From contig JAFGJS010000140.1 of the NCBI GenBank assembly GCA_016928995.1, positions 1 through 27,313 on the forward strand: a stretch of DNA of 27,313 nt, written 5' to 3'. This document shows positions 8,913 to 26,576 of the stretch, piece by piece (the stretch's first letter is position 1; every line of letters starts with the position of its first letter). Source of the DNA: Candidatus Sumerlaeota bacterium. Its GTDB lineage: Bacteria > Sumerlaeota > Sumerlaeia > JAFGJS01. The notes below the pieces were generated by a model. That model was not told the origin of the DNA, did no database searches, and worked only from the letters and a program-made list of their open reading frames with translations. The translations under genes were made by a program, and so were the position numbers.

Positions 8913-8913
8913 T

Positions 8914-9030: not shown

Positions 9031-9906
9031 ATGATACCCCAGGAAATTCTGAAACAGGTGCGGCGGATTGAACTCGCGACTCGCAAGGCCGTCAACGACG
9101 TGATGGCCGGCGAGTATCACAGCGTTTTCAAAGGCCGCGGCATGGATTTCGACGAGGTGCGTGAGTACCAGCCGGGCGACGAAGTGCGGTCGATCGACTG
9201 GAACGTCTCAGCGCGCATGGGGCGGCCGTATATCAAGCGCTACATGGAAGAGCGCGAGCTGACCGTGATGCTGATGGTGGACGCCAGCGGCTCGCTCGAC
9301 TTCGGCTCCGGTTCGCAAATGAAGGGCAAGACGGCCGTGATGATCTGCGCCTTGCTCGCTTTCGCGGCGATCAAAAACAACGACCAGGTAGGGCTGATCA
9401 TTTTCACCGATGAAGTGGAACTCTACCTTCCGCCGAAGAAGGGGCGCAAGCATGTGCTCCAGGTGATCCGCGAGCTGCTTTACTTCGAGCCGCGGCGGCG
9501 CGGCACGGACATCGGCGGCGCGTTGGAGTATATGAACCGCGTGACCAAGCGCCGCAGCGTGGTATTTCTCGTGTCGGATTTCGCGGATGAGCATCTGTAC
9601 AAGTCGCTGCTGATCGCCAACCGCAAGCATGACTTGGTGGCGTTACGGATTCACGATCAACGCGAAATGGAACTGCCGCCGGTTGGTTTGCTCGAGTTGC
9701 AGGACGCGGAAACCGGCGAAGTGGTGATGCTGGACACGTTCAGCGCCGGTGTGCGGCGATCCTTTGAGCGCAAAGCGAGAGAGACTGCGACAGGATTGGA
9801 GAACTTGTTCAAACGGCTTTCCATCGATTCAGTGGATTTCGAAACGGAGGAAGATTACGTGGAGCCGTTGATTCGTTTCTTCCGCAGACGGGCGCAAAGG
9901 GCATGA
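9031..9906 (+). CDS. DUF58 domain protein (VWA-like), MoxR partner
   Basis: The 291-residue cytosolic protein has the DUF58 core 'GRGMDFDEVREYQPGDEVRS' followed by 'IDWNVSARMGRPYIKRY' (residues about 35-71) and then a VWA-like strand with 'LMVDASGSLDF' (81-91; D84, S86, S88 form a MIDAS-like DxSxS). DUF58 proteins are regularly encoded directly after moxR and before BatA, as here, but their biochemical action is not known. The start is uncertain: ATG 9031 has no strong ribosome site, and a TTG at 9019 in the same frame lies inside the flanking repeat. The gene ends five bases before the next one. Confidence 0.92.
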   Translation: MIPQEILKQVRRIELATRKAVNDVMAGEYHSVFKGRGMDFDEVREYQPGDEVRSIDWNVSARMGRPYIKRYMEERELTVMLMVDASGSLDFGSGSQMKGKTAVMICALLAFAAIKNNDQVGLIIFTDEVELYLPPKKGRKHVLQVIRELLYFEPRRRGTDIGGALEYMNRVTKRRSVVFLVSDFADEHLYKSLLIANRKHDLVALRIHDQREMELPPVGLLELQDAETGEVVMLDTFSAGVRRSFERKARETATGLENLFKRLSIDSVDFETEEDYVEPLIRFFRRRAQRA

Positions 9907-9910
9907 GAAT

Positions 9911-10945
9911 ATGATGTTTCAAATCCACATCCGGCGAATTCTTTTGACTGGTGTCTGGTTTATGGCGTCGCTGGTTTTTTGCGCGACGCAGCCAGATAAG
10001 GTCGAAGTGCATGCGGAGCTCCGACCGCAAAAGGCGGAGGCGGGCGATCCGGTGGAGTACATTGTGACCGCACGCTGGGATGCGAACGCCGTGAGCAAAG
10101 TGTCGCTGCGCAACCGGCCATCGTCGGACACGCTGGAATTGCTCGATTATCAGGCGGGAGATGCGCGGACGCTGAAGGATGGCCGGACGGAAGCGCAATA
10201 CACGATGCGCCTGTTGCCGTTGACTGACGGCGCGATGATTATTCCACCCGCCGAGGTGGAGTATATCGTCAATGGCGAAGATCAATCGCACGTGGCTCAA
10301 TCGCAAGCCGCGCGGCTCGAAGTGTCGTTGACTCCGCCGGAAGATGCGCAGAATCCGGATATCCGCGAGCGGCTGGCTCAAGCATCGGTGGCGCCGGATC
10401 GCACTGTGCTGTACGCCATATTGGCAGGTGGAGCTGTTTTAGCGGCGCTGGCTGGGGTCGTTGGCTGGCTGATTTGGCGCAAGTGGAATAGTCACGTTGC
10501 CGATGTCCCGCGCGAACCCTTGCGGCCGTTGGAGGAAATCGTGCGAGAGCAGCTGGATCAATTGGCGCGCGGCGATCTGCTGATCCAGGGCAAGTACAAG
10601 GAATTCTTTCTGGAACTTTCGCGCATCATGCGATTTTACGCCGGGCAGCGTTTCAACATCCTGGCGCTGGATATGACCAGCTATGAACTGGAAGAGGCGC
10701 TGGCGGACCGGGTGAATCAGGAGCTGCACGATCAATTGCGCGAGTTCAACAGCGATTGCGATCTGGCGAAATTCGCCAAGCATCGCCCCAAGAACGCGCG
10801 GGTGGATCAGTTGCTGCAACTGGCGCACGAGTGGGTGCGCAAGACTTCGCCGTCGATGCGCGACGGGAAGATGACGCCTTCGCCATACGTGAAGAGCGCC
10901 GGCGCGGAAGCGAACGCGGACGTTCATGAGGAGGTTCGCGCATGA
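9911..10945 (+). CDS. BatD-like/DUF4381-like single-pass membrane protein
   Basis: The 344-residue protein has a signal peptide (about 1-25), a beta-sandwich-type exported domain with 'LRPQKAEAGDPVEYIVTARW', a membrane helix (about 165-188, 'AILAGGAVLAALAGVVGWLI'), and a cytosolic helical domain with 'YKEFFLELSRIMRFYAGQRF' and 'TSYELEEAL'. That C-terminal pattern is typical of small membrane proteins between DUF58 and BatA genes. It starts five bases after the DUF58 stop (AAAGGG lies at 9896-9901) and its stop overlaps the BatA start as ATGA, so translation is probably coupled. A second in-frame ATG at 9914 is equally possible. Function is inferred from the operon only. Confidence 0.85.
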   Translation: MMFQIHIRRILLTGVWFMASLVFCATQPDKVEVHAELRPQKAEAGDPVEYIVTARWDANAVSKVSLRNRPSSDTLELLDYQAGDARTLKDGRTEAQYTMRLLPLTDGAMIIPPAEVEYIVNGEDQSHVAQSQAARLEVSLTPPEDAQNPDIRERLAQASVAPDRTVLYAILAGGAVLAALAGVVGWLIWRKWNSHVADVPREPLRPLEEIVREQLDQLARGDLLIQGKYKEFFLELSRIMRFYAGQRFNILALDMTSYELEEALADRVNQELHDQLREFNSDCDLAKFAKHRPKNARVDQLLQLAHEWVRKTSPSMRDGKMTPSPYVKSAGAEANADVHEEVRA

Positions 10946-11970
10946 ACGCATTGCAGACGATTTTCGGCGAAGGCTTCCGGCTGCTGAATCCGGAGTGGCT
11001 GTTGCTGTGGCTGCTGCTGCCCGTGCTCTGGCTGATCGCGCGGCGCAAGGAGCGCGCGAGCCGGGCGGCGTTGCGCTTTTCCACGGTGCAGCCGGCGCAG
11101 GGAGCGCCGCGTTCGTGGACCGTGCCCGGACGCCATGTGGTGAAACTGCTCCGGCTGATAGCGCTCGCGTTTTTGATTTTTGCGCTGGCGCGTCCGCAGC
11201 AAGGCCAGTCGAACAAGCGAGTGCGCGCGGAGGGGATCGCGATCGCGCTGGTCGTGGACTGCTCCGGATCGATGGAACATCAGGACTTCAAGCCCAACCG
11301 GCTGGAGGCGGCGAAGCGGGTGCTGGAGGAATTTGTGGACGGCCGTGAGAACGACCAGATCTGCGTGGTTATTTACGGCAACAGCAGTTTCGTCGCGTGT
11401 CCGATGACGATGGATTACGATGTGCTGAAGGACTTTGTGCGCCGGATAAATTTCCAAATGCTCGGTGAGCAGTTCACCGGAAAAACGGCCATCGGCCTGG
11501 GGCTGGCGCATGCGTTGAACCAATTGCAGCAGACCGGCGCCGAAAGCAAGGTGGCGATCTTGCTGACCGACGGCAAAAACAACGCGGGAGAAGAAATGCC
11601 GCCGCTGAAGGCCGCGGATCTCGCCAAAACCCTGGGTGTGAAGGTGTATACTATCGGCATGGGCGACCCCAACGCCCGCGTGCAACCGCAAGGCTTCGGC
11701 TTCTTCCAGATGACAATGCAGGGATCGGAGCTGGATGAGGAACTGCTCGCCGAGATCGCGCAGAAAACGGGCGGTCGATATTTCCGCGCGACGAACGGCG
11801 AGAAATTAGAGGAGATTTACGCGGCGATCAATAAGATGGAGAAGAAGGAATTTGAACTGCCCACATTCGACAGCTATGACGAGAAGATGGGTTTCTGGGC
11901 GGCGCTGGGATTGGCGCTATTGATGCTGGAATTGCTGCTCGGGTATACGCGATTTTTGAAGTTGCCATAA
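10942..11970 (+). CDS. batA: VWA-domain membrane protein BatA
   Basis: The 342-residue protein has two N-terminal membrane helices (about 17-34 and 66-84), a von Willebrand A domain and a C-terminal helix (about 320-338). The metal-ion-dependent adhesion site is complete: 'VDCSGSM' (D106, S108, S110), T172 in 'GKTAIG' and D200 in 'LLTDGKNN'. Together with BatB it is expected to form a membrane complex driven or remodelled by the MoxR ATPase; the substrate is unknown in the family. The start overlaps the preceding stop as ATGA. A 110-base gap with a perfect inverted repeat follows before BatB. Confidence 0.94.
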   Translation: MNALQTIFGEGFRLLNPEWLLLWLLLPVLWLIARRKERASRAALRFSTVQPAQGAPRSWTVPGRHVVKLLRLIALAFLIFALARPQQGQSNKRVRAEGIAIALVVDCSGSMEHQDFKPNRLEAAKRVLEEFVDGRENDQICVVIYGNSSFVACPMTMDYDVLKDFVRRINFQMLGEQFTGKTAIGLGLAHALNQLQQTGAESKVAILLTDGKNNAGEEMPPLKAADLAKTLGVKVYTIGMGDPNARVQPQGFGFFQMTMQGSELDEELLAEIAQKTGGRYFRATNGEKLEEIYAAINKMEKKEFELPTFDSYDEKMGFWAALGLALLMLELLLGYTRFLKLP

Positions 11971-11975
11971 AATAT

Positions 11976-12048
11976 GTAGGGTGGGCCTTGGCCCACCATC
12001 TTGAATAATGGCTCGATATACGAAATGGTGGGCCAAGGCCCACCCTAC
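11976..12048. repeat. perfect 24-bp inverted repeat with nested palindromes
   Basis: The arms 11976-11999 and 12025-12048 are exact reverse complements. Each arm contains its own palindrome, GGTGGGCC-TT-GGCCCACC in the left one, and the centre is a 25-base spacer. It fills most of the batA-batB gap. The shape is that of a REP/MITE-like palindromic unit or an intercistronic RNA hairpin. There is no T run, so it is not a standard terminator and probably lets transcription pass. Confidence 0.9.
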
Positions 12049-12080
12049 TTCAGGACTCCGATAAAGGAATAGAATAGTCC

Positions 12081-13109
12081 ATGGAATGGCATTCGCCGCA
12101 ACAACTCTATTGGATTTTCGCTTTGCCGCTGCTGATTGCGTTTTTCGTCTGGGCGCTGCGGCGGAAACGGCGATTGCTGGAGCGCTTCGCGTCATGGCCG
12201 ATGATCCAGCTTTTGGCGAGCAATGCGAGCCTGGAGCGGCAGATCATCAAGTTCGGCATGATCACAACCGCCGTTGCGCTGACGATCATCGCGCTGGCGC
12301 GTCCGCAATATGGACGAGTGGAGCGCGAGGTGCTGCGGCGCGGGATGGACATCATCGTGGCCGTGGACGTTTCGACGAGCATGCTGGCGTCCGACATTCC
12401 CCCGACGCGATTGGAGCGGGCGAAACAACAACTTTCGGACTTGATCGACAACATCGAGATGCGCCAGGGCGACCGGGTCGGCATCATGGTCTTCGCCGGC
12501 GACGCTTTCCTGGCGTGCCCATTGACAGTGGATTATTTTATCGCGCGGCAATTCCTGGAATCGGTGAATCCAGCGACCATCGCGCAGCAGGGCACGATGC
12601 TTGGCACGGCGATCCATGAAGCCGTGCGGGCTTTTGAACGGTCCGAATCGGACGGCGACCGCTTGCTGATTATGCTGACCGACGGCGAGGATCAAGGCTC
12701 CGATCCCGCGGCGGCGGCGCAGGCAGCGAAGAGCAAAGGCGTGAAGATCTACACCATCGGCATCGGCTCGGAGCAAGGCGAGCCGATCCGGCTGCCGGAC
12801 GGGAGTTTCAAAAAAGACCAGGATGGCAAGATCGTCACCTCGAGGCTGGATTTCAACACGTTGCAACAAGTCGCGCTGGAGACCGGCGGCAAGGCGATCA
12901 AGGCGCTGGAATCCGGCTTTGAAGAGCTGGAGGTGATCTCGCGCGACATCGAATCGATGAAGCGCGCGCAGCTCTCGACAAAGACCTTCTCGTTAAAGCA
13001 AGAACGCTATCAATGGCTGCTGGCGCCCGCGGCGCTGCTGCTGATGTTTGAAATGCTGATCGGCGTGCGGCGGCGGCTGACTCACGATTGGAAGGGGCGA
13101 TTCGAATGA
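12081..13109 (+). CDS. batB: VWA-domain membrane protein BatB
   Basis: This 342-residue paralogue of BatA has N-terminal helices (about 10-26 and 56-72), a VWA domain with an intact MIDAS ('VDVSTSM', D96/S98/S100; T172 in 'GTMLGT'; D201 in 'LTDGEDQ') and a C-terminal membrane helix ending 'LLMFEMLIGVRRR'. 'DIPPTRLERAKQ' just after the MIDAS is typical of the BatA/BatB group. AAAGGA lies at 12063-12068, a rather long 12 bases before ATG 12081. The stop codon overlaps the BatC start as ATGA. Role: partner of BatA in the membrane complex. Confidence 0.94.
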   Translation: MEWHSPQQLYWIFALPLLIAFFVWALRRKRRLLERFASWPMIQLLASNASLERQIIKFGMITTAVALTIIALARPQYGRVEREVLRRGMDIIVAVDVSTSMLASDIPPTRLERAKQQLSDLIDNIEMRQGDRVGIMVFAGDAFLACPLTVDYFIARQFLESVNPATIAQQGTMLGTAIHEAVRAFERSESDGDRLLIMLTDGEDQGSDPAAAAQAAKSKGVKIYTIGIGSEQGEPIRLPDGSFKKDQDGKIVTSRLDFNTLQQVALETGGKAIKALESGFEELEVISRDIESMKRAQLSTKTFSLKQERYQWLLAPAALLLMFEMLIGVRRRLTHDWKGRFE

Positions 13110-14113
13110 GCGGAAGGCAAGCGCATATCGTCGCATGGGCGGCGCTGTCGTTCTTGATCGCGGCAGGCGGTTTCGCGTTCGCCCGTCCATTGCATCAAGT
13201 CGTCGAAGAAGGCAACAAGCAATATAACGCGGGCGAGTACGACAAGGCGCTGAAGACATACGAGCAGGCGGAAGAGCAGGATCAGGATGCGGCCGAACTG
13301 CGTTTTAATATCGCCAATACGCAGTACCGCCTGGGAGAATTCGGCCCGGCGATGGAGGCGTATCGCGGCGTTTACGATCCGAAAAAAGACTGGTTGAATT
13401 TCGACGCGCAGTTCAACGCCGGAGCGGCGATGTACCGGGATGCGGAAAAGGCCCTGCAGCAAGCGCAACAACCGCAACCGCAGCCGCAGCAGATGCAGCA
13501 GGCGCCGGGCGGACCGGGAATGATGATGCAGCCGCCGGATTTGCAGCCGGCGATGGATAAACTTGAGCAATCGATCGACGCATACCGCCAGCTGTTGCGC
13601 AAACATCCCGGCCACGAGGACGTGAAATATAATTACGCCCAGGCCATGCGGCGTCTGCGCGAACTGAAACAGCAACAGCAACAGCAGCAGCAGCAGAATC
13701 AAGATCAACAACAGGACGACCAGCAGCAAAACGATCAGCAGCAGGACAATCAGCAGCAAAACGATCAACAACAGCAACAAGAAAACCAGGAAAATTCACA
13801 ACAGAACGATCAACAGCAGAATCAGGATCAGCAGCAAAAGCAAGATCAACAAAACAGCGAGGAACAACAGCAACAGGACGAACAACAATCAGAACAGCAA
13901 AAGCAGGATGAGTCGCAACAACAGCAACAAAACGAATCACAGCAGGAGTCGCAGGGTCAGCAAGGCGATCCACAAAAACAGCAGGAGCAGTATTCGCAAA
14001 TGATGGCCGAGCGTCTGCTGAAGCAAATGTTCGGCAAGGACAACGAGGAGCTGTATCAACAGATGCTGATGCAGCAACAGCGCGGCGGTCCGAGCGCGGA
14101 GAAAGATTGGTGA
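13106..14113 (+). CDS. batC: BatC-type TPR protein with long Gln-rich tract
   Basis: The 335-residue protein has a signal peptide (about 1-27, ending 'FAFARP'), TPR-type repeats ('VEEGNKQYNAGEYDKALKTY' and 'FNIANTQYRLGEF', about 32-115), a Pro/Gln/Met-rich linker (about 117-146), another TPR-like helix pair ('QSIDAYRQLLRKHPGHEDVK') and then about 100 residues almost wholly of Q, N, D, E, S and K (about 189-290). A helical tail with 'MMAERLLKQMFGKDNEELYQ' closes it. ATG 13106 has AGGGG at 13093-13097 and overlaps the BatB stop as ATGA; an in-frame ATG at 13088 is rejected because it lies before the ribosome site and signal peptide. TPRs suggest a protein-binding scaffold in the periplasm. Confidence 0.92.
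   Translation: MSGRQAHIVAWAALSFLIAAGGFAFARPLHQVVEEGNKQYNAGEYDKALKTYEQAEEQDQDAAELRFNIANTQYRLGEFGPAMEAYRGVYDPKKDWLNFDAQFNAGAAMYRDAEKALQQAQQPQPQPQQMQQAPGGPGMMMQPPDLQPAMDKLEQSIDAYRQLLRKHPGHEDVKYNYAQAMRRLRELKQQQQQQQQQNQDQQQDDQQQNDQQQDNQQQNDQQQQQENQENSQQNDQQQNQDQQQKQDQQNSEEQQQQDEQQSEQQKQDESQQQQQNESQQESQGQQGDPQKQQEQYSQMMAERLLKQMFGKDNEELYQQMLMQQQRGGPSAEKDW
13668..13990 (+). repeat. CAR-rich low-complexity tract coding for poly-Gln-like region
   Basis: Inside batC the DNA is an irregular run of CAA/CAG with GAT, GAC, AAC and GAA codons. Units such as 'QQQNDQQQ' and 'QQQENQENSQQNDQQ' recur without a fixed period. CAA and CAG are well mixed, so it is not a simple microsatellite; the amino-acid composition appears to be what is kept. 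Confidence 0.85.
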
Positions 14114-16097: not shown

Positions 16098-16879
16098 GAC
16101 ACAAGCGCATGCTGGCGATCGCGGCGTTGACGGCGCTGAGCGCGTGCTCGGCTGGGCTGATGCATTTCGCCTGGCCGCAGCATTCCGGCGGTTATTATAA
16201 GCAGATTTTCCAGGCGGGCAACCAAGCCTTCGTTAACAAGGATTTCGCCGCCGCGCTTGAGCGCTACAAGGAACTGCTCAACATGGAACTCGCAGATCCG
16301 GTTTTATATTTCAACGCGGGCAACGCTTATGCGCAGCTGGGCCAGGCGGGGCGCGCGACGTATATGTATGAAAAGGCGCTGCGCCTCGATCCGCGCGATG
16401 AAGCGGCGGCGTACAATCTGCGCAAGGTGGAGCCGGAAGAGAATCGCCAGACGCCGTTCATCCTGCTGGCGCCGTTCGTGTCGCTCTTACGCTTCCTGAC
16501 GCTGGACGAATGGGCGTGGCTTTTCAGCGCGTTGTGGTTCGCGACAGCGATTTTGATCGCGGCGGCATTGCTGGTGGAGACTGATTTGCCGCGGCGCTAC
16601 AGCAAGTTTTGCGCGTGGATCGTCGGCGCGTTTTGTCTTTTCGCGCTGAGCATGCTGGGCGTCAAGTATCAAACGCAGGTGTTGCACGACGAGGGAATCG
16701 TGTTGGAATACGTGGTGACGCGCGCAGGCCCCAGCGGCGAATTCAACGAGGAATTTAAATTGCCCACGGGCCGCAAGGTGCGCGTGACGCATCAATCGCC
16801 GGAAGGCTGGTGTGAGATCGCGATTCCCGGCGAATCCAAGCAGACATACATCCCGGCTGACAAGCTGGGTCTGCTTTAG
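16094..16879 (+). CDS. batE: BatE-type TPR/SH3 membrane protein
   Basis: The 261-residue protein begins with a signal that fits a lipobox ('LTALSAC', C18), then a TPR unit ('AGNQAFVNKDFAAALERYKE', 'FNAGNAYAQLGQAGRATYMY', about 40-110), two membrane helices (about 140-165 and 175-195) and a C-terminal bacterial SH3-like domain ('GRKVRVTHQSPEGWCEIAIP'). This matches BatE, the usual last gene of the cluster. ATG 16094 overlaps the batD stop as ATGA; a longer frame opening at 15992 lies inside batD and is not used. The stop is six bases from the stop of the convergent helicase-C3-like gene, with no visible terminator between them. Confidence 0.9.
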   Translation: MRHKRMLAIAALTALSACSAGLMHFAWPQHSGGYYKQIFQAGNQAFVNKDFAAALERYKELLNMELADPVLYFNAGNAYAQLGQAGRATYMYEKALRLDPRDEAAAYNLRKVEPEENRQTPFILLAPFVSLLRFLTLDEWAWLFSALWFATAILIAAALLVETDLPRRYSKFCAWIVGAFCLFALSMLGVKYQTQVLHDEGIVLEYVVTRAGPSGEFNEEFKLPTGRKVRVTHQSPEGWCEIAIPGESKQTYIPADKLGLL

Positions 16880-16885
16880 TCTCGA

Positions 16886-19636
16886 TTAATTCTCTTCTTC
16901 CGCGAGACGCGTTTCCTGGATGCGGGCGACGAAAAAGTTAATGTGCCGGTCGCGTTCGGGGACGTGCGCATACATCTTTTCATTATTGAATTCTTCGGGC
17001 ACCACAGTGAGCGTGGTGGCTTTGCCGCCCCGGCGTTCGTAGACGATCTCAATCGGCTGCTTGTTTTCCTGCGAATATTCAATCATATCGAGAATTTCAT
17101 TTTTGCGCTTGGCGGGATTGGCGCCTTGAAAGCCGAACCGCGACGCGCGTGGAGCGACGGCGTTTTTCGCGGCGCGATGCGTCGTGAGCAAACGTCCCAC
17201 CTGGCGTTTGTATTTCCCCATGACGCTCGACATTTTTTTCTTCAGCGCCTCTTCGAAACGCCGCTCGTAGGTGTGGCTGACGGTTTCGGCGTAGTAGTTC
17301 AGGTTGTATTGCTTGCCGGAGTCCGGTTTGAGCCGCTCCAGCAGCGGACCGATCTGGTTTTGCGTGATGTCGCTCTCCAGCAGATTCTCCACAAAACCTG
17401 TGAAGCGGAGCACAGCCATCAGCGTGTAGAGCTCTTCCTGGCTGAGCGAGATGTTGTATTTGCCTTCGCTGGTGACCGTCACATTTTCCGAGTCGAGCTG
17501 CGGCATGAAGCCGAGTTTTTGCAGTTCCCGGGCGACTTTGCGCACGTCCAGGTTGGGCTGGAGGATGATCAGCTTGTCATCGAGCACGTCCTTGATGAAC
17601 GGCTTCAGTTTCTTTTGCGACTTGAGCTCTTCGAGCAAAATCCGGTCGAGGACGCGCATGAATCCGCCGGCGAAGCCCATGCGCAGCTCGCCGTGTTTGT
17701 CGCTGCACTCGGCGATCAGGTGCTTGACGGTTTCCGGCACGCCCTGCGGACAGCATTCGTTGAGGAAGTTGAGGATTTCCTCCGCTTCCATGCCGCGATC
17801 CATGCCGTTGCGCAGCGATTCGCGCGAGATCACAAGGGTGCTCATGACGTCGATGGATTTGATCTGGGCGAATTCATTCAATTGGAAAAACGAACGCAGC
17901 TTCAGGTCCGGCGGTGTGATGATCTCCAGATTGGGCTGAACCGTGAAAAGGTTCACCTCATTATACAATGGCAGAAAGGACGTGTCGCGCCCTTCGAAAA
18001 GCTTCTTCGGATTGTCGAACGGCCCGTCGAGGATGAAGCGTCCGAGGGGCGTGACCTGAAAGAAAAACTGATGGTTGTTGCCCCGTGTGCGCGAGGATCC
18101 CCGCATGCGGTTGCCAAGCCGCGCGAGATTGGTTTTCTCATCGATGCCCAGCGTGACGATGCCCAGCCAATGCAGCATTTCGGCGATAACCGATTCGATG
18201 ATCATTTTCACTGGACGCTGGTTGCGCTCCATGCCGCCGCCCCGGCGAGGGATGTTCATCTCGACCTGCGGCGCGAGGCTCTCGGCGAAAGCGTCGAAGT
18301 TGATCCATCGCGTGTGCGGGATGGATTGGATGTTCCGCAGGACAAGCTTGCGCAGTTCAGGCGCGTTGATCAGGTTCGCCGCGGCGTCCGAATGATGCGC
18401 GTTGCCGTCGATATGCTCCTCGTTCCATTGGTTCGTGGTGAGCCAGAATTGATAGATGTCCTGGTAGCATTCCAGCCCTTTGTCCAGCCAGGCATGGAAG
18501 GTGTTGTTCACGCGCCAGGAATTGCCGACCGGAATGAGGAACTTGTTCTCGATCATGAACAGCGCGAGAAAGCCGATGTACTTCAGCGTTTTGTTGGCGC
18601 TGACGAACGGGACGAATTTCTTCAGGTCGTTTTTGCCCATGCCGCCCGTCGCGAGGGGCTTGACGTTATTGTGATTGATGTAGCTGGCGACGATCACGAT
18701 GTCGCGCAGCATGTTGTTGCTGTTGTCGATGATGTTGCTCGGAGCATGCTCTTTATACTGCGACTTGACGGTGTCGAGCTCCTGCAGCGGCCGCATGTCC
18801 TCCGCGTAATGATGGTCGATGATGTAGTAAATGTCCTTCGGGATCATCAGCAGGTTGTTGTATTTATTCTCGCCCTGCTGCGCGACGAAAACCAGCCCGC
18901 TGTTGTTTGTCAGGTTGTTGACATATTCCGCCTTGGAATGGTCGTAATGCTTTTGATATCCGCTGTCGAGCAGGTCGCGGTAAACGCAGACGCCCTTGCG
19001 GTCGAGGATCATGCGGAAAATCTCACGCTCGTTCTCGCCGAGGCTCTGGATGTACTGGCGCAGTTTCTTGGGCGTGAGCAGGTGCTGCCGTGCAAGATAA
19101 ACCAGGATGTTGTGCCGCGTGCTGCGCGTGCGGACCTTGAGTTTTTTGCTTACGAGTTCCTTCAGGCTCTGCGCGTTCATCTCGTTGAGGTAAAAGCCCA
19201 GATAGCCCTCCCAATAGCTCGGCAGGGTGATATAGCGCAGGAACGGCTCCGGGATTCCGGCCAGGCGCTCCTTGATTTTTTTGTCTCCGGATTCGTCGAA
19301 AAAGACCATGCCCTTCAGCGTCAAGATCCCGATGGCTTGCTCCATGCGCTCCGTTTCGCCGTTGAAGAAGCGCTGCAGAATCTCGGACTCGCCCATGTCG
19401 CCGCCATGGATGGCGAGGAAATACATGAGATCCTTTTCCCCCATGCCCAGACGGTTATAAGCGCCCATGAAGTACTGGCTGATTTGCAACCGTGGATAGA
19501 GGTACTCGACCAGCTGGAGTTTCTGTTTCGCGGAGGGTACGCCGGGGCTGAAGATCATCTCATGGACGCCCCAGTACTTCTGGATATCCTGCAACTGAGC
19601 CAGTTCCATCGATTTTAGGATGCTTTTAAGTTTCAT
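16886..19636 (-). CDS. helicase-C3 (XPB/Ssl2 N-terminal-like) and WYL-like domain protein without helicase motor
   Basis: The 916-residue protein has no Walker A or DEAD box. About residues 563-680 ('FTVQPNLEIITPPDL', 'VPETVKHLIAECSDKHGEL') resemble the helicase-associated domain seen at the N-terminus of XPB/Ssl2 helicases. A small alpha/beta unit follows ('LIILQPNLDVRKVARELQKL'). The last 70 residues ('ILDMIEYSQENKQPIEIVYE' to 'HINFFVARI') look like a WYL-type ligand-binding fold. The N-terminal half is helical, perhaps winged-helix repeats. ATG 19636 is chosen because AGGAAA lies five bases upstream; an upstream in-frame start at 19795 is less likely. Such proteins are suspected DNA-binding regulators or helicase partners. 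It is monocistronic, and the function is unknown. Confidence 0.8.
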   Translation of the reverse strand: MKLKSILKSMELAQLQDIQKYWGVHEMIFSPGVPSAKQKLQLVEYLYPRLQISQYFMGAYNRLGMGEKDLMYFLAIHGGDMGESEILQRFFNGETERMEQAIGILTLKGMVFFDESGDKKIKERLAGIPEPFLRYITLPSYWEGYLGFYLNEMNAQSLKELVSKKLKVRTRSTRHNILVYLARQHLLTPKKLRQYIQSLGENEREIFRMILDRKGVCVYRDLLDSGYQKHYDHSKAEYVNNLTNNSGLVFVAQQGENKYNNLLMIPKDIYYIIDHHYAEDMRPLQELDTVKSQYKEHAPSNIIDNSNNMLRDIVIVASYINHNNVKPLATGGMGKNDLKKFVPFVSANKTLKYIGFLALFMIENKFLIPVGNSWRVNNTFHAWLDKGLECYQDIYQFWLTTNQWNEEHIDGNAHHSDAAANLINAPELRKLVLRNIQSIPHTRWINFDAFAESLAPQVEMNIPRRGGGMERNQRPVKMIIESVIAEMLHWLGIVTLGIDEKTNLARLGNRMRGSSRTRGNNHQFFFQVTPLGRFILDGPFDNPKKLFEGRDTSFLPLYNEVNLFTVQPNLEIITPPDLKLRSFFQLNEFAQIKSIDVMSTLVISRESLRNGMDRGMEAEEILNFLNECCPQGVPETVKHLIAECSDKHGELRMGFAGGFMRVLDRILLEELKSQKKLKPFIKDVLDDKLIILQPNLDVRKVARELQKLGFMPQLDSENVTVTSEGKYNISLSQEELYTLMAVLRFTGFVENLLESDITQNQIGPLLERLKPDSGKQYNLNYYAETVSHTYERRFEEALKKKMSSVMGKYKRQVGRLLTTHRAAKNAVAPRASRFGFQGANPAKRKNEILDMIEYSQENKQPIEIVYERRGGKATTLTVVPEEFNNEKMYAHVPERDRHINFFVARIQETRLAEEEN

Positions 19637-20301
19637 GATCGTTTCCTGATTTCGCCGCGGGCGCAGGCGGCTTATCGGTGTTTCAACCCCTTGCGCAAAA
19701 AAACGGCGGTTCCTATCGAGCAAATGATTAACTGTGATCCACGGGCTGAAATCAAGTTTATTTCGACATGTGATCGATTTCAGCTCTGCCGCCAAAGCCG
19801 GCCGAAACGGCGGTTGGGGACATCAATGACGGATAATGGAGCGGGAAAACAGTAAAGCGCTGCCGTTCGATTGATCCATTTGCGCATTTTTTTTCATCGA
19901 GCAAAGACCCTTTCGGCGCATAGCAACCTGCGCCGATGGCGATTCGTCAAATCTCACCGTCCTGCCAATGGTGTATGTTCAAAAAGAAAGCCGCAAGCCC
20001 ATTTTTCTTCAGATTCGTACTTTTCCCTGAAATTTCATACCGCAACAACGGCCCCAGAAACTAGCGAAAGTCTCTTCCGATCCGATCTAAATCACTATCG
20101 CTATCGGAATCGGGATCGGAATCGCTCTCTAAAAAAGCAACGGTAACGACGATCCCGATTGCGATCCCGATCCCGGAGAGCGAGAAGGAAGCACATCGAA
20201 CGGACTTTGGAAAGCTCCTCTCTATGGCCAAACCCGCTGAGAAATCTATTGAAAGCGGCGTTTTGAACTGAGAAAATAGCTTATTCTCTCGGGAATCTCG
20301 T
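19637..20301. other. 665-base non-coding gap upstream of ssrA
   Basis: No convincing gene is present; the short open frames have no ribosome site or recognisable protein. The 5' part must hold the promoter of the minus-strand gene ending at 16886, and the 3' part that of ssrA. A hexamer-type hairpin repeat lies near 20091-20184. TTGAAA (20249-20254) and TTGAAC (20263-20268) are possible -35 elements for ssrA, but no -10 with proper spacing is clear. Confidence 0.6.
20091..20184. repeat. inverted repeat built of GATYCC-type hexamers
   Basis: The left arm (20098-20124) is a run of ATCGGA/ATCGGG hexamers and the right arm (20156-20183) a run of GATCCC/GATTGC units. They pair as an imperfect hairpin of about 27 bp with two or three mismatches and one bulge around a 31-base loop. 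It lies 120 bases upstream of ssrA. The loop contains an A run. It is probably a mobile or regulatory palindromic repeat; no protein-coding sense is seen. Confidence 0.75.
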
Positions 20302-20669
20302 GGGGGCGTAACGGTTTCGACGGGGTTCGATGACGGAATGGCGGCAGGCCGAGTTACGCTCTTGGCAGACTCGTAAAACGGCTAGAGCACATCGTTTAAG
20401 TGCGAACGACAACTATGCACTGGCTGCGTAATTAAACGCGGCCCGTCCGCTCCGGTAGGCCGACAGACCGGAATCCGGGCGTCGACTTAATCGGCTGGTC
20501 CAAGAGCCTCTTCTCGTGGGCTTGAGGATGAGACCTTTTGCGAGATAAGCGGCGCCGCAGTTTTGTCCGGCGGCAGCGGCGCCGCCGACAATCCTTCACC
20601 GGACTATGCCTGTAGATGCCATTTCGGCAAGTTCACCGGACGCGGGTTCGACTCCCGCCGCCTCCACCA
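20302..20669 (+). ncRNA. ssrA: transfer-messenger RNA (tmRNA), one-piece
   Basis: tmRNA rescues stalled ribosomes with SmpB and tags the nascent chain. The 5' end GGGGGCG (20302-20308) pairs with CGCCTCC before the encoded ACCA end (20669), with one G-U pair. 'GTAACGGTTTCGAC' follows as the conserved 5' D-loop-like region, and the 3' T arm is 'GCGGGTTCGACTCCCGC'. The resume codon is GCG at 20402 and the tag frame reads ANDNYALAA then TAA (20429-20431), with a second stop TTAA just after. The 368-base length and continuous layout mark the standard one-piece form. A perfect terminator stem follows at 20687. Confidence 0.97.
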
Positions 20670-21239: not shown

Positions 21240-21659
21240 CTACGCGAATCCAAGCGCCCTGCGCTGCTCGTCCCAGTCGCAGGAGAGGACCTTGATCAAC
21301 TTCATGTAGGAAAGCCCGTCGGGTTCGCGGCCATCGAGGATGGCCTGTGTGATATCCGGCGCGAGCGTGGCAAGCCGCAGGACGCGGGCGACATAGGAGG
21401 GGTCCTTGCCCAGCGCGTCGGCGAGCTGCTTCGTCGAGCCGTACTTGCCTTCATCCAGAAGCCGGGTCCAGGCGTGAGCGCGGGCCAGGATGGCGACAAG
21501 GAGTTCCTGGCTCGCGGGATGGTCGCCGGTGCTCGATCCGTCGAGGCCCTCGGGAGCGATAATCAGTTTTCGCCCAAAGCGTTTGCGCATCAGCATCGGC
21601 ACGTGAATCAGCAGGCCCCCGTCGGCGGTGGACCGGATCGTGACTTTGCCGTCGCTCAT
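21240..21659 (-). CDS. small ParB/HTH-like protein linked to serine recombinase
   Basis: The 139-residue protein has an N-terminal beta segment ('VTIRSTADGGLLIHVP') and a central helix-turn-helix region 'STKQLADALGKDPSYVARVL' continuing 'RLATLAPDITQAILDGREP', which resembles the ParB/KorB DNA-binding helices. The C-terminal 'CDWDEQRRALGFA' is a typical ending of small proteins found directly after large serine recombinases on prophage-like elements. Its start overlaps the recombinase stop as ATGA, so the two were one operon. It probably binds DNA and regulates or assists recombination; this is inferred. A terminator follows it. Confidence 0.8.
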   Translation of the reverse strand: MSDGKVTIRSTADGGLLIHVPMLMRKRFGRKLIIAPEGLDGSSTGDHPASQELLVAILARAHAWTRLLDEGKYGSTKQLADALGKDPSYVARVLRLATLAPDITQAILDGREPDGLSYMKLIKVLSCDWDEQRRALGFA

Positions 21660-22764
21660 GATTGGCCTCCCCGTTGCCGCGCCTCGTCGGCATAGGCGTT
21701 CAGGTCGGCGACCAGTCCCACGACACCCACGGCTTTCAGTTTCAGATCGAGTCCATCCTGCCAGACCGTGATCCGCTCGACCATCGTCTGGACGATGCGT
21801 TGCTTCTCAGTTGGGAATAGCACATCCCAGAACTCTTCAAGCGAACCGAATGCTTCGGCGACGTCATGCTCGGTGATATTGGTCTGACCGAGTCCCGCCA
21901 GATCGCGTTCGATCCGGTCGAGGTCCTGGCCGACCGAAGACGCCTTTGTGTTCACTTCCATGATCCGGTCGGTGTCGCCGCCGTCGCGCACGAGTCGGAT
22001 CGCGTCGTCCTGGCCGATGGCGCGGATGCGCTCGATGACGAAGCGCTCGATGTCGCGCGCCGGCAGCGACTTGGTCGGGCATGTGTCCCAGCCGTGTTTC
22101 TGCGGGTGCGAGCAGACGTAGTAGCGATAGCGCCGCTTGTTTTTGGCCGTGACAGTCCAGGTGTGGATCATCGCCGCGTGGCAGGCGTCGCAGAAAATGA
22201 GGCCCTTGAGCAGACCGCCATATTTATTGCGAACCTCGACGCCGCCCGAGCGGCCGTTATGCCGCAGCCGCTCCTGCACGCGCCGCCAGACGCCTTCGTC
22301 AAGGATCGCGGGATGCTCGCCGTCATAGATGGAGCCTTTGTAGTCCACCTTGCCGATGTAAATGATATTGGTCAGCAGGCTGAACAGGCTGTTCTTGTTG
22401 AAAGGACGCCCGCCGCGCTCGATGCCTTTCTTCGTCACCCAGCGTTTGCTGACGAGTCCCCGGCGCGCGAGTTCCTGCGTCGCGGTGACGAGACCTTGTT
22501 CCTGAAGATAGACCTCGAAGATCTCGCGCACTTGTGCGGCTTCTGCTTCGTTAACGAGCAGTCGACCGCCGCGCGGATCGACGTCGTAGCCCAACACCGG
22601 CATGCCGCCGACCCATTTGCCCTTGCGCCGCGCCGCAGACATTTTATCGCGCGTGCGTTCGGCGATGATCTCGCGTTCGAACTGAGCAATGGAGAGCAGA
22701 ATATTGAGTGTCAGGCGCCCCATCGAATTCGTCGTGTTAAATTGCTGCGTCACGGACACAAAGG
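21656..22764 (-). pseudogene. large serine recombinase lacking its catalytic N-terminus
   Basis: The open frame gives about 367 residues starting at 'SVTQQFNTTNSMGRLTLNIL', which is the end of the resolvase catalytic domain. The recombinase domain follows ('GKWVGGMPVLGYDVDPRGGR'), then a zinc ribbon ('FCDACHAAM' with later 'YYVCSHPQKHGWDTCPTKSL') and a coiled-coil/C-terminal part. The first hundred or so residues with the catalytic Ser are missing. Homology reads back to 'FVS' at about 22764 and then stops in frame at 22772-22774, at the point where an unrelated plus-strand fragment begins. The GTG at 22759 is only the first possible start, not a true one. The gene is therefore a broken integrase of a former mobile element. 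Confidence 0.88.
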
Positions 22765-22921
22765 CGGCGCTTCAACGACATGCGCGGCTGGGACCTCGAT
22801 CCGCAGACTCGCAACGACCTGCGCGACAAGGGGATGATCAAGAACTACAGCACGAGCGGCATCCTGTTGACCTCGGCCATGCCCCTCGACGAAATCCTGC
22901 TCATCCCCGACGAGGAGAATA
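22765..22921 (+). pseudogene. unidentified gene fragment, possibly phage-type, abutting the broken recombinase
   Basis: The plus-strand frame reads 'RRFNDMRGWDLDPQTRNDLR', 'DKGMIKNYSTSGILLTSAMP' and 'LDEILLIPDEEN', which looks like real protein sequence. It has no upstream start with a ribosome site and begins just where recombinase homology ends. After 'DEEN' the frame runs into A+T-rich island DNA and stops near 22960. The wording of the segment recalls C-terminal parts of phage structural (capsid-like) proteins, but I cannot name the family. It is probably a piece left by a rearrangement. Confidence 0.5.
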
Positions 22922-22936
22922 GACGAGTATTTCACA

Positions 22937-23878
22937 TTATTCACTTGTCACATTGAATTTCCCTGTTGTCCATACATACTCGGACGTCCCCATTCTCTCA
23001 TGTCGCATACCACTTAATTCGACAATCCGTTTATCTGGAAGTCGTATGCATTCGCCTGCCACAAAAAAGGAACCTGCATCATGCAATAAGCGCTTATGAA
23101 AATCGATCAGTGACCATTCTCTGGATATGTCAGGATACTTAGATGCGTTGTCTATTCCTTGAAACGCTGAAAAAAAAGCCCTCTTGTTCCTCTTGGCGAC
23201 TTCAGGGACAAAACACTGTATGCAACGAATCTTCCTTTCCCCTTTTTGTTTGCGATTAATGCTATTCATTGACACGATCGCAAATTCATTCTCACTTAGA
23301 AGATTCGCAATAACAGGCTCAGCGCCAAACAAAAACGCTTGTAACGAAACCTGCAATTGTTCAGCAGCGGCAAAATACAACTGATATTGAAGCAGACCAA
23401 CTTTTGAATGCTCGATAATCCCCTTCAGCAGTGATGTAGGCATCAGGAAACCGCACGCAAGACCATTGCATACTTCCTCTTCCCTGCGTTTGTCATCATT
23501 TGGGGCAATTCGGATTGGTGGCTTTTCTGAAAGATTCCACATCAGCGAATGACCAAGTTCGTGAGCATATGTAAACTTCATTCTCGTGAATAACGGATGA
23601 TTTCTTGGCGGGGCTTTTCGAGAATTACTGCTAATAACAATTCGCATAGCCGAATCAACTATTTCGAGAGCGCCGTCCCCTGATATTGCCTTATAGATAG
23701 GACGAGGATCCTCAAACCCAAGGATTTTTGCAATACTACCTAGATGAATCGGCGCAGACTTGTCAAATCCATTTGATGCAAGCAAATTCTCGGCATAACT
23801 TCTAGCATTAGCCGCATTCCCTTTGCCACCGAAAGTGCTTTTGCACCAAACAGAAAATTGGCTTTCGCGGAGACTCAT
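22937..23878 (-). CDS. ImmA/IrrE-family zinc metallopeptidase
   Basis: The 313-residue protein has the gluzincin motif 'YAHELGHSLMW' (H106, E107, H110) and a downstream acidic helix 'RREEEVCNGLACGFLMP' (E133-E135) that supplies the third ligand, as in ImmA/IrrE (DUF955) proteases. The N-terminal 'ANARSYAENLL' helix and 'GSIAKILGF' are also usual for the family. The C-terminal 150 residues (with 'IRCIQCFVPEVAKRNKRAFF') are not recognised. Its start overlaps the HD gene stop as ATGA, so it is co-translated with that gene. ImmA proteases cleave repressors or other regulators; here the likely partner is the HD protein or an unseen regulator. The DNA is A+T rich compared with the chromosome around it. 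No terminator is obvious. Confidence 0.88.
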   Translation of the reverse strand: MSLRESQFSVWCKSTFGGKGNAANARSYAENLLASNGFDKSAPIHLGSIAKILGFEDPRPIYKAISGDGALEIVDSAMRIVISSNSRKAPPRNHPLFTRMKFTYAHELGHSLMWNLSEKPPIRIAPNDDKRREEEVCNGLACGFLMPTSLLKGIIEHSKVGLLQYQLYFAAAEQLQVSLQAFLFGAEPVIANLLSENEFAIVSMNSINRKQKGERKIRCIQCFVPEVAKRNKRAFFSAFQGIDNASKYPDISREWSLIDFHKRLLHDAGSFFVAGECIRLPDKRIVELSGMRHERMGTSEYVWTTGKFNVTSE

Positions 23879-26439
23879 TCTTGAATTCCATTAAACAACT
23901 CAAGGTTTTCAGATGTGTCTTTCGCGAGGAGTGAATTCATTGCTTTATTCAGAACCTGTGCATAGAATGCTTGATCGCGAGCGGCTTCGCGAATATCCGA
24001 AGGGAAATTATCCTCAATCGCCTTTTCAAATGAAGTCTTTTCTGATTTTTTTAGCGCATCCGGATTCTTAGAATTGCGGATCAAACTAAGGAATGGTTTG
24101 TTTTCTCCGATCAACCTGCGCAATTCCTTTGGATCCCATGCGTCACTATCCGAGAGGGAATCAGAACCCTCGATCTTGCGAATATTAGATGAAAACACTT
24201 TAAGAACATTTCCGACCAATCCGTCTTCTACTTCAGGCTCTATGGTTTCGTAAAACACATAGGATCGAATATCTAAAGGTTTTTCCGGAAGAAGATTATC
24301 AAGATTCGTCAGCGAGTTCTTCCAGCTCCAACTGGTTCGCTGAATTGCATACTTAAGCGCAATATCAGATACTTCTTGAAGAGCTTTTCCGAATCCAGAC
24401 TTGTAGTTTCCAATGGAGTCTTTCGCGCGATCAGACAGAAGATGAAAAAAGGGGTGCGCAAAGAAATAGACCCGCCACAACGAATTATAGCTATCTTCCA
24501 TAGCAGCAAGCTGCTTTCTGATATTCTCAGGATCCTCGCAATCACAAAGGGGAGTGATATTGAGAGCCGAGTTCTCATCTTTTCGAATTGAAGGGCGCGC
24601 CACAAGAACCAATGGCTGTTTGTATTTTTTTGCCCACTTGCGAATACCGAGGATTACGTAATTCTCAGGTTTGGTCATATATACATTAGGCTTATGTTGA
24701 TCATAGGCGCCTGAGAGCAGATCTTCCATTTCTTGCAGTTTAGCTGAAAGAGCCGCCTGGTGTGCTTGGTCATGATCACGGGGAATAAATGCTTGCTCCA
24801 AACTCTGACATGCAAATTCCTCTTTTTCCGAAGGAGCATCATCAAGACCATGAACGCCGTCAATGATTATGCTTTCTCTGAATACCCTACGCTCTTCAAG
24901 CATTTCTGCAAGTTCCTTGGCTCGCTTGACGGCATTGCAATGTTGTTTTTCTAATGCCTTCTTGCACACATGACGGACCCACCTCAACAATGTTGCGTCA
25001 TTGTCTGGCTGCAATGGATCATCATGATCATAAAGCAGGGGATGGAGGCGCTTGACATTAATAGCAATGGTTTGATCATTCAATTCCTTTGATGCCTGAT
25101 CGAGCAAGGTCACAATTTCCTGAAGCATAACACGAGCGGACTCCACGACGCGATGTGTATATACCCGTTCGCAGAGAAGATAACGCGCTTGCAGATAAGC
25201 CAACATTTCCGTGAAAACGCTATGGCGATGGCATCCCCTTTTGTGATCCCAGACATCAAATACGATATGCTCGCATGAGATTGGAATGCTCTCATATTGA
25301 AAAACGTTTCCCGATTCAGCTCCAGTTACCTCTCTCTTTTTCTTGTCTTGAGGAAGTATTTTCCTTGCGATAAACATGCGATCCAGGAATTTGAGGTCAA
25401 TCTCGGAGACAATCCCGCTATGATAACCGTCGCGCTTTACATAGTCGATTAAATCCGCGCATATCGTATTTCCGATAATGTCTTTTCGGTAGGCGCGAAA
25501 CCAACCGGGGATAGGCAACCATTTCAATGAGGTCCCATCGTCTGGTTCAGCGTTGAAACATACTTCCAGCGGGGAAGTTGTATCGAGCTGGTTATCTTTA
25601 ACTTTCTCGCATAAAAAGTCTCGTCTCTCTTTGCCGGAAGACAGCCACTGGCGTTGCTTCTCGAAAAGATGTATTTCAAAGATCATTAAAGATAAGATAG
25701 GCAATCCATCCGGAAAGGCATTTGTGCATCTGATAACTCCATCGGCAGAATCCGTTTTGACCATTCCATCGCTTGTGATCTGGCCCGAATTTAAGAAGTC
25801 GATAAACTGGCCATATCCTTGACGCGTAAGCATATCCTTACGGTGCTGATCCGTATAAAAAGCCTTTAATGCTTTGAAAAAATCGGCATTATGCTTTCGC
25901 AGAACAGAAGCAAGAATGCTACGCTTACTAAACATGTAAAGAAATAATGTTGGATTGGATGAAAGATCATCATGCGACGGGATGATCTCCGTTCTCCCAC
26001 CATCGTTGATCCGCCTTCTTGCACCTTCAATCTCATGTGAAAATGGCGCATGAGGAAGGTCATGGAGGAGGGCGGCGGCAGAGATGATTATTCTCTCCAA
26101 CGATGTTATGAGCGGAAGGTTGTTTGGATCGGCTTTCTGCTTTAGTGAGCCATGCAGCCTATACGCGGCATATCTCAAATCTGACCGCATATTCGCATTG
26201 ACCCTGTCGACAATTATCTTGGATTGATGGCAGACGCCAATACTATGCACAAAGCGACTATGCTCAGCTGCAGGATAAACGAGATTTGCAAATCCAAGCT
26301 GTTTGATGTGGCGAAGTCTTTGGAATTCCGGTGATCCGATAAGTCGCTTTTCGAACATGCTTATAGGCACGAGTCCGTATAAAGGATCTGCAATTATCTC
26401 ATTATCTTGAAAATCCGGCGGGAGTGACATATCGCCCAT
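23875..26439 (-). CDS. SAMHD1-like HD dNTP triphosphohydrolase, large form
   Basis: The 854-residue protein opens with the dNTPase signature 'SPEFQRLRHIKQLGFANLVY' then 'PAAEHSRFVHSIGV' (about 36-69). Metal ligands of the HD site are visible: H65 ('FVHSIGV'), H126/D127 ('LLHDLPHAPFSH') and D329 in 'CADLIDYVKRDGYHSGI', which lines up with the SAMHD1 'DVDKWDYFARD' segment including the tyrosine. The family removes triphosphate from dNTPs. The C-terminal half (about 450-854) is long and not recognised. ATG 26439 is chosen because GAGGG lies six bases upstream; 26454 and 26430 are alternatives. It is first in a two-gene operon with the ImmA-like gene. A 60-base sample at 24181 has only 37% G+C, which suggests transfer. 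Confidence 0.88.
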   Translation of the reverse strand: MGDMSLPPDFQDNEIIADPLYGLVPISMFEKRLIGSPEFQRLRHIKQLGFANLVYPAAEHSRFVHSIGVCHQSKIIVDRVNANMRSDLRYAAYRLHGSLKQKADPNNLPLITSLERIIISAAALLHDLPHAPFSHEIEGARRRINDGGRTEIIPSHDDLSSNPTLFLYMFSKRSILASVLRKHNADFFKALKAFYTDQHRKDMLTRQGYGQFIDFLNSGQITSDGMVKTDSADGVIRCTNAFPDGLPILSLMIFEIHLFEKQRQWLSSGKERRDFLCEKVKDNQLDTTSPLEVCFNAEPDDGTSLKWLPIPGWFRAYRKDIIGNTICADLIDYVKRDGYHSGIVSEIDLKFLDRMFIARKILPQDKKKREVTGAESGNVFQYESIPISCEHIVFDVWDHKRGCHRHSVFTEMLAYLQARYLLCERVYTHRVVESARVMLQEIVTLLDQASKELNDQTIAINVKRLHPLLYDHDDPLQPDNDATLLRWVRHVCKKALEKQHCNAVKRAKELAEMLEERRVFRESIIIDGVHGLDDAPSEKEEFACQSLEQAFIPRDHDQAHQAALSAKLQEMEDLLSGAYDQHKPNVYMTKPENYVILGIRKWAKKYKQPLVLVARPSIRKDENSALNITPLCDCEDPENIRKQLAAMEDSYNSLWRVYFFAHPFFHLLSDRAKDSIGNYKSGFGKALQEVSDIALKYAIQRTSWSWKNSLTNLDNLLPEKPLDIRSYVFYETIEPEVEDGLVGNVLKVFSSNIRKIEGSDSLSDSDAWDPKELRRLIGENKPFLSLIRNSKNPDALKKSEKTSFEKAIEDNFPSDIREAARDQAFYAQVLNKAMNSLLAKDTSENLELFNGIQE

Positions 26440-26481
26440 CTCAAACCCTCGCATTTCAAAGGTATTTTTTCTCGATCAAGC

Positions 26482-26576
26482 TCACAGCACCGCCATGACG
26501 GAGTTGCTGGGGTCGCCTTCGCCGGTTTTGTTGACGGCGAAGGCGCGGTATTCTCATTCCTTGCCGGACTCCAGTG
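26482..26576 (-). pseudogene. decayed C-terminal copy of an FnIII-domain protein
   Basis: Read on the minus strand right after the stop of the FnIII gene, the frame gives 'TLESGKE', a TGA, then 'EYRAFAVNKTGEGDPSNSVM' and 'AVL' with a final TGA (26484-26482). This aligns with the end of the upstream protein ('LEYRIIAINPGGNSVPSNTA', 'AVVL'). It is thus the last 30 codons of a second FnIII protein, joined to the first gene by a deletion and carrying an in-frame TGA where a Tyr codon (KEYEY) is expected. Confidence 0.75.

Follow-up and report, generated by a model that had tools for sequence, protein, structure and literature searches.

We describe a two-gene module, composed of a predicted SAMHD1/EF1143-type HD phosphohydrolase and an ImmA/IrrE metallopeptidase, that recurs in unrelated bacteria, often near anti-phage genes, and therefore looks like an unnamed anti-phage module. 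We assign a probability of roughly 0.5 to the reading that it is a conserved, horizontally spread effector-regulator module, toxin-antitoxin-like and most likely anti-phage, in which the HD protein is gated via its C-terminal tail. That the two genes form a defence effector-regulator pair is probable. Control of the HD protein by the ImmA protein through the tail stands slightly below even odds, and the most specific form of the proposal is more tentative again: here the pairs would make up a widespread defence family, so far unnamed, whose SAMHD1-type dNTPase is gated by its own ImmA/IrrE protease acting on an added C-terminal tail. In the proposed mechanism, the HD protein would be the effector, splitting dNTPs into deoxynucleoside and triphosphate and thereby stopping DNA replication, and the ImmA/IrrE protein would serve it as a dedicated regulator, both being translated from one mRNA with their amounts coupled. 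The ImmA protein may contact the HD protein via a C-terminal tail peculiar to the ImmA-linked HD branch. It could keep the enzyme off until infection is sensed or, alternatively, could clip the tail and so switch the enzyme on or off, and the pair would in this way protect its host against phage.

The window is the whole 27,313-nt stretch of Candidatus Sumerlaeota contig JAFGJS010000140.1 that was analysed, and the features of the pair are collected in Table 1. An earlier note on this DNA had described an 854-residue HD protein overlapping by ATGA a 313-residue HELGH metallopeptidase. Both genes and the overlap were confirmed, the shorter HD length corresponding to an alternative in-frame start, ATG 26439, with GAGGG 6 nt upstream; the 859-residue numbering is used here. 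The A+T richness reported at the locus is also borne out, with a G+C content of 43-45% at the pair compared to 55-62% in the surrounding DNA. The match of the adjoining recombinase to the 145-position Resolvase domain starts only at position 98, so that the protein lacks its catalytic N-terminus, in agreement with the note's description of a broken phage-type recombinase. A search for att-like repeats in the window returned only weak repeats, and a promoter scan gave a result at chance level.

Table 1. Features of the HD-ImmA pair and the adjoining recombinase, in window coordinates
Feature	Position	Strand	Length or basis
HD gene, predicted SAMHD1/EF1143-type dNTP triphosphohydrolase	23875..26454	-	859 aa
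H70, equivalent of SAMHD1 metal ligand His167	26245..26247	-	alignment
H131-D132, HD motif, equivalent of SAMHD1 His206-Asp207	26059..26064	-	alignment
H140, equivalent of SAMHD1 proton donor His215	26035..26037	-	alignment
D334, equivalent of SAMHD1 metal ligand Asp311	25453..25455	-	alignment
C-terminal tail of the HD protein, 199 residues past conserved W660	23878..24474	-	
ATGA overlap of HD stop and ImmA start (translational coupling)	23875..23878	-	ORF coordinates
ImmA/IrrE (Peptidase_M78) metallopeptidase gene	22937..23878	-	313 aa
HELGH zinc-binding and catalytic motif, residues 106-110	23549..23563	-	
E134, invariant glutamate at the family's third zinc ligand position	23477..23479	-	
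Large serine recombinase, CcrB-like, without catalytic N-terminal part; mobile-element remnant adjoining the pair	21656..22759	-	

The HD protein is nearer to SAMHD1 and EF1143 than to the Dgt/dGTPase family. The four ligands named in the earlier note (H65, H126, D127 and D329) correspond to H70, H131, D132 and D334 in the present numbering. None of them varies among the 13 paired homologs, and neither does the proton donor H140 (SAMHD1 residue roles for His167, His215 and Asp311 from PMC12186264). H161, which aligns with the second-metal residue His233, is kept in 12 of 13 and lost in L097. SAMHD1 Lys312 is replaced by Leu335 in 13 of 13, so that substrate preference may differ from that of SAMHD1. 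In profile comparisons, the HD protein matched SAMHD1 at E 1e-42 and the Dgt-type SpdGTPase weakly, at E 1.7e-6. An AF2 model built from 76 aligned sequences (pLDDT 71, pTM 0.74; a model built without relatives reached pLDDT 34 and was unusable) contains the common fold, an HD core plus a C-terminal lobe, and aligned with EF1143 structure 3irh at Z 31.2 over 423 residues (4.1 A) and with SAMHD1 at Z about 28. Compared to the EF1143 and SAMHD1 structures (PDB 3irh, 9mr6, 6brg), the protein has the HD ligands, proton donor, second-metal histidine and fold over residues 9-702 (Z 28-31) in common, and differs in its large insertions, the leucine in place of Lys312, the extra C-terminal tail and the linked ImmA gene. 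No SAM domain was recognised in the HD protein. The earlier assignment to a SAMHD1-like HD family stands, and the active site is complete, whereas the dGTPase (Dgt) type does not: the protein scores far below the curated threshold of TIGR01353 (21.7 vs. 152.35 bits). The PADLOC dGTPase model covers the HD motif only (23.9 bits), and the Pfam HD model barely reaches its cutoff (22.1 vs. 22 bits). The HD protein is predicted to hydrolyse dNTPs.

The gene pair is conserved as a two-gene unit. The earlier note's proposal implied that the two families co-occur in other genomes, and searches that used only the HD protein turned up 12 more loci, in Alphaproteobacteria, Chloroflexota, Planctomycetota, Zixibacteria, Verrucomicrobiota and Ignavibacteria, at which, as in the window, an ImmA gene immediately follows the HD gene on the same strand. 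Spacing at these loci, counted from the longest ORF, ranges from an overlap of up to 53 nt to a gap of up to 8 nt; the HD frame is broken at one of them (L068). Relatives were recovered only with a motif-shaped search alignment, whose artificial rows were used for searching only, and single-protein scans of viral and genome contigs found no relative. The only ImmA-like ORFs in 1.3 Mb of flanking DNA were the eight of the first scan. In a reciprocal test of 455 genomes, an HD gene adjoined only the family's own ImmA proteins, at three loci, each being the best-scoring match of its genome; none of the 38 other ImmA/IrrE matches lay beside an HD gene. The HD and ImmA proteins co-diverge (Mantel r 0.43, p 0.008). 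In the HD tree, the paired label needs 3 changes compared to 12.3 when shuffled, distant phyla are neighbours, and 56 untailed HD proteins form a supported clade. Chance adjacency, or a decayed remnant beside the broken recombinase, might be suspected from the truncation of that gene and from the divergence of the window's HD protein, the most divergent member at 23-27% identity. This explanation is highly improbable, being contradicted by the same gene order at 12 other loci and by two uninterrupted frames, of 859 and 313 codons, in which no catalytic residue is missing. A phage origin of the pair is unsupported, viral HD relatives being unpaired. In plasmids and phages, tblastn matches were confined to the N-terminal HD portion of other HD proteins, and in the regions inspected none of these was followed directly by an ImmA gene; neither the ImmA protein (by tblastn) nor the Tistlia HD protein used as a query had a match.

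Presence of the ImmA partner follows that of a C-terminal tail on the HD protein. The SAMHD1 fold match stops near residue 702 of the HD protein. Tails of 94-199 aa are found in the ImmA-paired HD proteins and are absent from solo relatives, the only other tailed proteins being two unpaired members (L142/L171 and L173), which have no adjacent ImmA gene. In a first set, ImmA lay beside 7 of 7 tailed HD genes and 0 of 70 untailed ones (Fisher 4e-10), and in a second set from whole-genome searches beside 4 of 6 and 0 of 27 (4e-4), an association that is inflated by shared ancestry. No common sequence motif was found in the tails, and hence no common cleavage site is visible.

The partner is a recognisable M78 peptidase, scoring above the cutoff of Pfam Peptidase_M78 (PF06114; 31.7 vs. 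22 bits), a model that matches eight of nine partner-family members at E values up to 1. Its best PADLOC match is capP (2.3e-12), IrrE structures match the ImmA profile at 4e-12, and PADLOC RmrA models match just its peptidase stretch. Its relatives IrrE, CapP and RmrA act as regulators of systems for stress response or defence against phage (PMC10904395, PMC10440598), and the ImmA protein has a C-terminal region following its peptidase, as in CapH-CapP and IrrE/PprI-DdrO. Given that the cited characterised M78 proteases cleave HTH repressors (PMC10904395, PMC2701414) and that the ImmA profile resembles IrrE and CapP, one alternative is that the substrate of the ImmA protein is an HTH repressor whose gene lies elsewhere, as in ImmA-ImmR, IrrE-DdrO and CapP-CapH. 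The HD protein would then not be its target, and the pair would be just one of several outputs controlled by a stress or mobile-element switch. We consider this improbable: in contrast to CapH-CapP, ImmR-ImmA and DdrO-IrrE, the pair has no HTH gene that is conserved beside it, the ImmA gene has no constant partner other than the HD gene, and ImmA presence tracks the HD tail.

Another parallel is RosmerTA, in which an ImmA-domain antitoxin, RmrA, is paired with an adjacent effector, the toxin RmrT. This system was validated against phage, and ImmA domains act as a hub among antitoxins, being paired with many toxins that are unrelated to one another (PMC10440598). By analogy, the ImmA protein could be a proteolysis-independent antitoxin that masks an HD toxin by binding, and the module could contribute to maintaining its element no less than to phage defence. 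A pair of small genes that overlap and lie on mobile DNA fits such a role, an integrase or recombinase adjoins the pair in the window and at L169 and L085, and the catalytic glutamate is changed in the L174 partner (HDxxH), where proteolysis may therefore not be needed. However, HExxH is retained in 12 of 13 partners, which binding alone does not demand. RmrA often, though not universally, carries an N-terminal HTH (PMC10440598), and RosmerTA gene order varies, whereas here the HD gene is always first, a search for HTH families in nine partners reported none, and the alignment has no evident N-terminal HTH. No RmrT is described as an HD phosphohydrolase in the available part of PMC10440598. 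A binding-only toxin-antitoxin pair is rather unlikely, and we favour gating of the HD protein through its tail.

Restriction-modification (RM), CBASS, integrase or recombinase genes lie near about 7 of the 13 paired loci, window included, in line with the candidate antiphage role named in the earlier note. For example, a CBASS cyclase and 2TM effector neighbour the pair at L097, a type IIG RM system and HKD-Snf2 at L174, a XamI endonuclease at L168, a type II methylase and serine recombinase at L085, an Eco57I methylase at L063 and a phage integrase at L169. No clear known defence neighbour was seen within the flanking stretches examined at L091, L093, L102, L106 and L170. The HD protein could instead be a housekeeping or signalling phosphohydrolase with another nucleotide substrate, in an operon for stress metabolism rather than defence. 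The replacement of Lys312 is compatible with this, as are the untailed relatives, which are common in Planctomycetota and Acidobacteriota and for which RM and CBASS were absent from the 25 leading neighbour families of nine control loci. Paired members, on the other hand, are seldom met with (in one class a single genome out of 385 has the pair, and in one phylum a single genome out of 308), patchy over phyla, fast evolving and near RM or CBASS genes. We regard a stress-metabolism role as quite unlikely, and a housekeeping operon, one of the counter-readings named in the earlier note, was rejected because the solo HD relatives lack both tail and ImmA.

The pair is distinct from Clover, RosmerTA and CapH-CapP. 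Clover consists of the dGTPase CloA and the nucleotidyltransferase CloB, which makes p3diT (PMC12265719). Both Clover and the pair described here are two-gene systems in which a dNTP-hydrolysing HD enzyme (by prediction in our case) has a dedicated regulator. They differ in that the partner here is an M78 metallopeptidase rather than a CloB-type nucleotidyltransferase and that the HD enzyme is SAMHD1-type, as judged by comparison with the Dgt-type SpdGTPase. No named system with an HD-ImmA pair was found in PADLOC 2023 or the literature searched, consistent with the earlier note, which could name no defence system with this exact pairing; an earlier mention is possible.

Nucleotide depletion is a defence common to animals and bacteria, exemplified by SAMHD1, a human antiviral protein that destroys DNA building blocks. 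The bacterial controls that keep such enzymes off are known in few cases, one being the nucleotide signal of Clover, and to our knowledge proteolytic control has not been described for any dNTPase. Because the tail sets the paired enzymes apart from the solo ones, deleting it offers a direct test of the control mechanism. If our reading is correct, the HD-ImmA pair would represent a second, protease-based control of a nucleotide-depleting enzyme, beside Clover's nucleotide signal, and SAMHD1 would gain a closer bacterial immune counterpart than the Dgt-type dGTPases.

The HD and ImmA/IrrE genes form a real, conserved two-gene module. They lie on a contig (C29) that is complete here and belongs to a 4.5-Mb draft genome. 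Our reading of the open reading frames gave the coordinates and lengths claimed in the earlier note, with GAGGG 6 nt upstream of the in-frame HD start codon. The G+C content of both genes is 43-45%, compared to 55-60% for the contig. A large serine recombinase flanks the pair on one side and an fn3-type gene on the other. The recombinase lacks its catalytic N-terminus, in agreement with its earlier description as broken, and together with an overlapping ParB-HTH-like gene it resembles a phage or ICE recombination module. The short G+C-rich scraps on either side of the A+T-rich pair look like gene remnants and are likely insertion scars; the right-hand one is similar to the terminal part of the adjacent fn3 gene, and the genome contains a second, weak match to this scrap.

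Features of the window and of other HD loci
Sequence	Feature	Position	Strand	Description
Window	HD gene	26454-23875	minus	859 codons; 854 from ATG 26439
Window	ImmA/IrrE gene	23878-22937	minus	313 codons; ATGA overlap with HD frame
Window	tmRNA gene	20302-20669		complete; further along the window
Window	ParB-HTH-like gene	21240-21659		139 aa; ATGA overlap with truncated recombinase
Window	G+C-rich scraps	22765-22936; 26460-26576		flank the pair
Window	glutamine-rich protein	13088-14113		long glutamine-rich stretch; amid MoxR-, DUF58- and BatA/BatD-like aerotolerance genes (by eye)
L020	HD neighbourhood	4986-9673		Sinorhizobium chiapasense plasmid pB
L022	HD gene	4848-7265		Desulfosarcina ovata plasmid; 806 aa
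L171	region of tailed HD gene	9672-11816		no ImmA downstream; includes the small convergent gene
L171	small convergent gene	11445-11816		reads VLLHELIELYLY
L174	ImmA partner	11411-12373		HDxxH for HExxH; adjoins intact HD gene
L097	1265-aa protein	16404-20198		no Pfam/PADLOC match; directly downstream of CBASS cyclase and 2TM effector
L085	phosphatase-HD fusion	7077-8255		low-molecular-weight phosphotyrosine phosphatase; about 1.4 kb upstream of pair

Direct searches of viral contigs, plasmids, phages and genomes returned no full-length HD relative. Relatives were collected with a search-only alignment, a degenerate query that kept two catalytic HD motifs and scrambled the rest; a tblastn search with the real HD protein then confirmed its matches. 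An ImmA/IrrE gene is directly downstream in 8 of the 80 HD loci found in this way: L063 (Limisphaerales), L085 (Dehalococcoidia), L097 (Ignavibacteria), L068 (Planctomycetota, HD frame broken), L106 (Zixibacteria), L102 (Hyphomicrobiales), L093 (Bradyrhizobium) and L091 (Tistlia). No further ORF in the 1.3 Mb of these loci matched the ImmA profile. Whole-genome searches with an HD profile added four pairs, L134/L168 (same phylum as L085), L136/L169 and L138/L174 (as L106) and L140/L170 (as L068). The pairing, whose co-occurrence the earlier note had proposed to check, recurs in 12 further loci; the HD gene is first in every intact pair, and the genes overlap or are at most 8 nt apart, counting the longest ORF. 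Few genomes carry such a pair: one in 385 for the class to which L093 belongs and one in 308 for the phylum of L063. A reciprocal search of 455 genomes with the ImmA profile found an HD neighbour at only three loci, all of the paired family and each holding the top-scoring ImmA match of its genome; no HD gene was near the 38 other ImmA/IrrE matches within the short stretches examined.

The HD protein is barely at the Pfam HD cutoff (22.1 bits, cutoff 22). Against structures, a profile of the paired relatives matched SAMHD1 at 1e-42, compared to 1.7e-6 for the Dgt-type SpdGTPase. An AlphaFold2 model (76 aligned sequences, pLDDT 71, pTM 0.74) matched the Enterococcus faecalis dNTPase EF1143 over 423 residues (Z 31, 4.1 A) and SAMHD1 structures at Z about 28, the fold match covering residues 9-702. 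The SAMHD1 iron-site residues His167, His206, Asp207 and Asp311 correspond to H70, H131, D132 and D334 (859 numbering), and the proton donor His215 to H140 (roles from PMC12186264). These five are invariant in 13 of 13 paired proteins, and the ligands named earlier were correct. H161, equivalent to His233 of the second metal site, is retained in 12 of 13. Because Leu replaces SAMHD1 Lys312 in all 13, the substrate of the predicted dNTPase is uncertain. The partner protein belongs to the M78 metallopeptidases (31.7 bits, cutoff 22), with a HELGH motif and an invariant Glu134, and its closest described relatives are CapP (PADLOC, 2e-12) and IrrE structures (profile, 4e-12). HExxH is retained in 12 of 13 partners; the exception, in L174, may be a catalytically dead regulator.

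Beyond the conserved Trp660, paired HD proteins carry a tail of 94-199 residues, compared to 25-72 (median 36) in 55 solo relatives. No common motif was found among the tails. All 7 tailed HDs had ImmA beside them, and none of the 70 untailed ones did (Fisher p 4e-10, ignoring shared ancestry). In a separate whole-genome set the counts were 4 of 6 tailed and 0 of 27 untailed HDs (p 4e-4, also ignoring shared ancestry); the two tailed HDs lacking ImmA were L142/L171 and L173. On the HD tree, 56 untailed proteins form one supported clade, and the paired label requires three changes compared to 12.3 for shuffled labels. L171 is nested among paired HDs, where it likely lost its ImmA partner; its small convergent gene is possibly a mini metallopeptidase. 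Members of different phyla are adjacent on the tree, suggesting that the HD gene probably moves horizontally. HD and ImmA distances are correlated (Mantel r 0.43, p 0.008). Two plasmid loci depart from this architecture. L020 is an HD and ImmA neighbourhood built differently from the tailed-HD pair, where a short HD protein of the ordinary kind has as neighbours a PIN gene, a QueC-like gene, an XRE-ImmA fusion and a Shedu SduA domain. The L022 protein, with a PD-(D/E)XK nuclease-like C-terminus (by eye), looks like a different effector fusion.

The proposed location among defence genes held for part of the paired loci. Neighbours include a CBASS nucleotidyltransferase and 2TM effector (L097), a type IIG restriction enzyme and HKD-Snf2 helicase (L174), a XamI-type endonuclease (L168), a type II methylase and a serine recombinase read by eye (L085), an Eco57I-type methylase (L063), an adjacent integrase (L169) and an AAA/STAND-like TPR protein (L068); no clear defence neighbour was found at L091, L093, L102, L106 and L170 within the stretches examined. 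When the genes around ten paired loci and nine controls were scanned with PADLOC, RM, cyclase and helicase families were among the top 25 listed for the paired set; the top 25 for the control set were kinase-like and other common families, with no RM or CBASS family. The pair itself is unnamed in PADLOC 2023 and the literature searched, in line with the earlier note.

SAMHD1-type enzymes cleave dNTPs and thereby halt viral DNA synthesis. Bacterial dGTPases and Clover use dNTP cleavage against phage (PMC12265719). ImmA-type proteins are regulators: IrrE/PprI, switched by ssDNA, cleaves DdrO (PMC10904395), and in the RosmerTA systems of phage defence, RmrA proteins carrying an ImmA domain serve as antitoxins to a variety of toxins (PMC10440598). 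Given that no conserved HTH repressor was found beside the pair among the paired loci and that the HD partner is constant, the HD protein is the likeliest ImmA target. The ImmA protein would act on this partner, and the tail, found only in the paired HD branch, would be the likeliest point of control, which ImmA could mask or cut. Among known kinds, the pair is comparable to a regulated dNTPase or to a toxin-antitoxin-like pair in which the partner has an ImmA domain, and its best reading is as a predicted defence effector-regulator pair.
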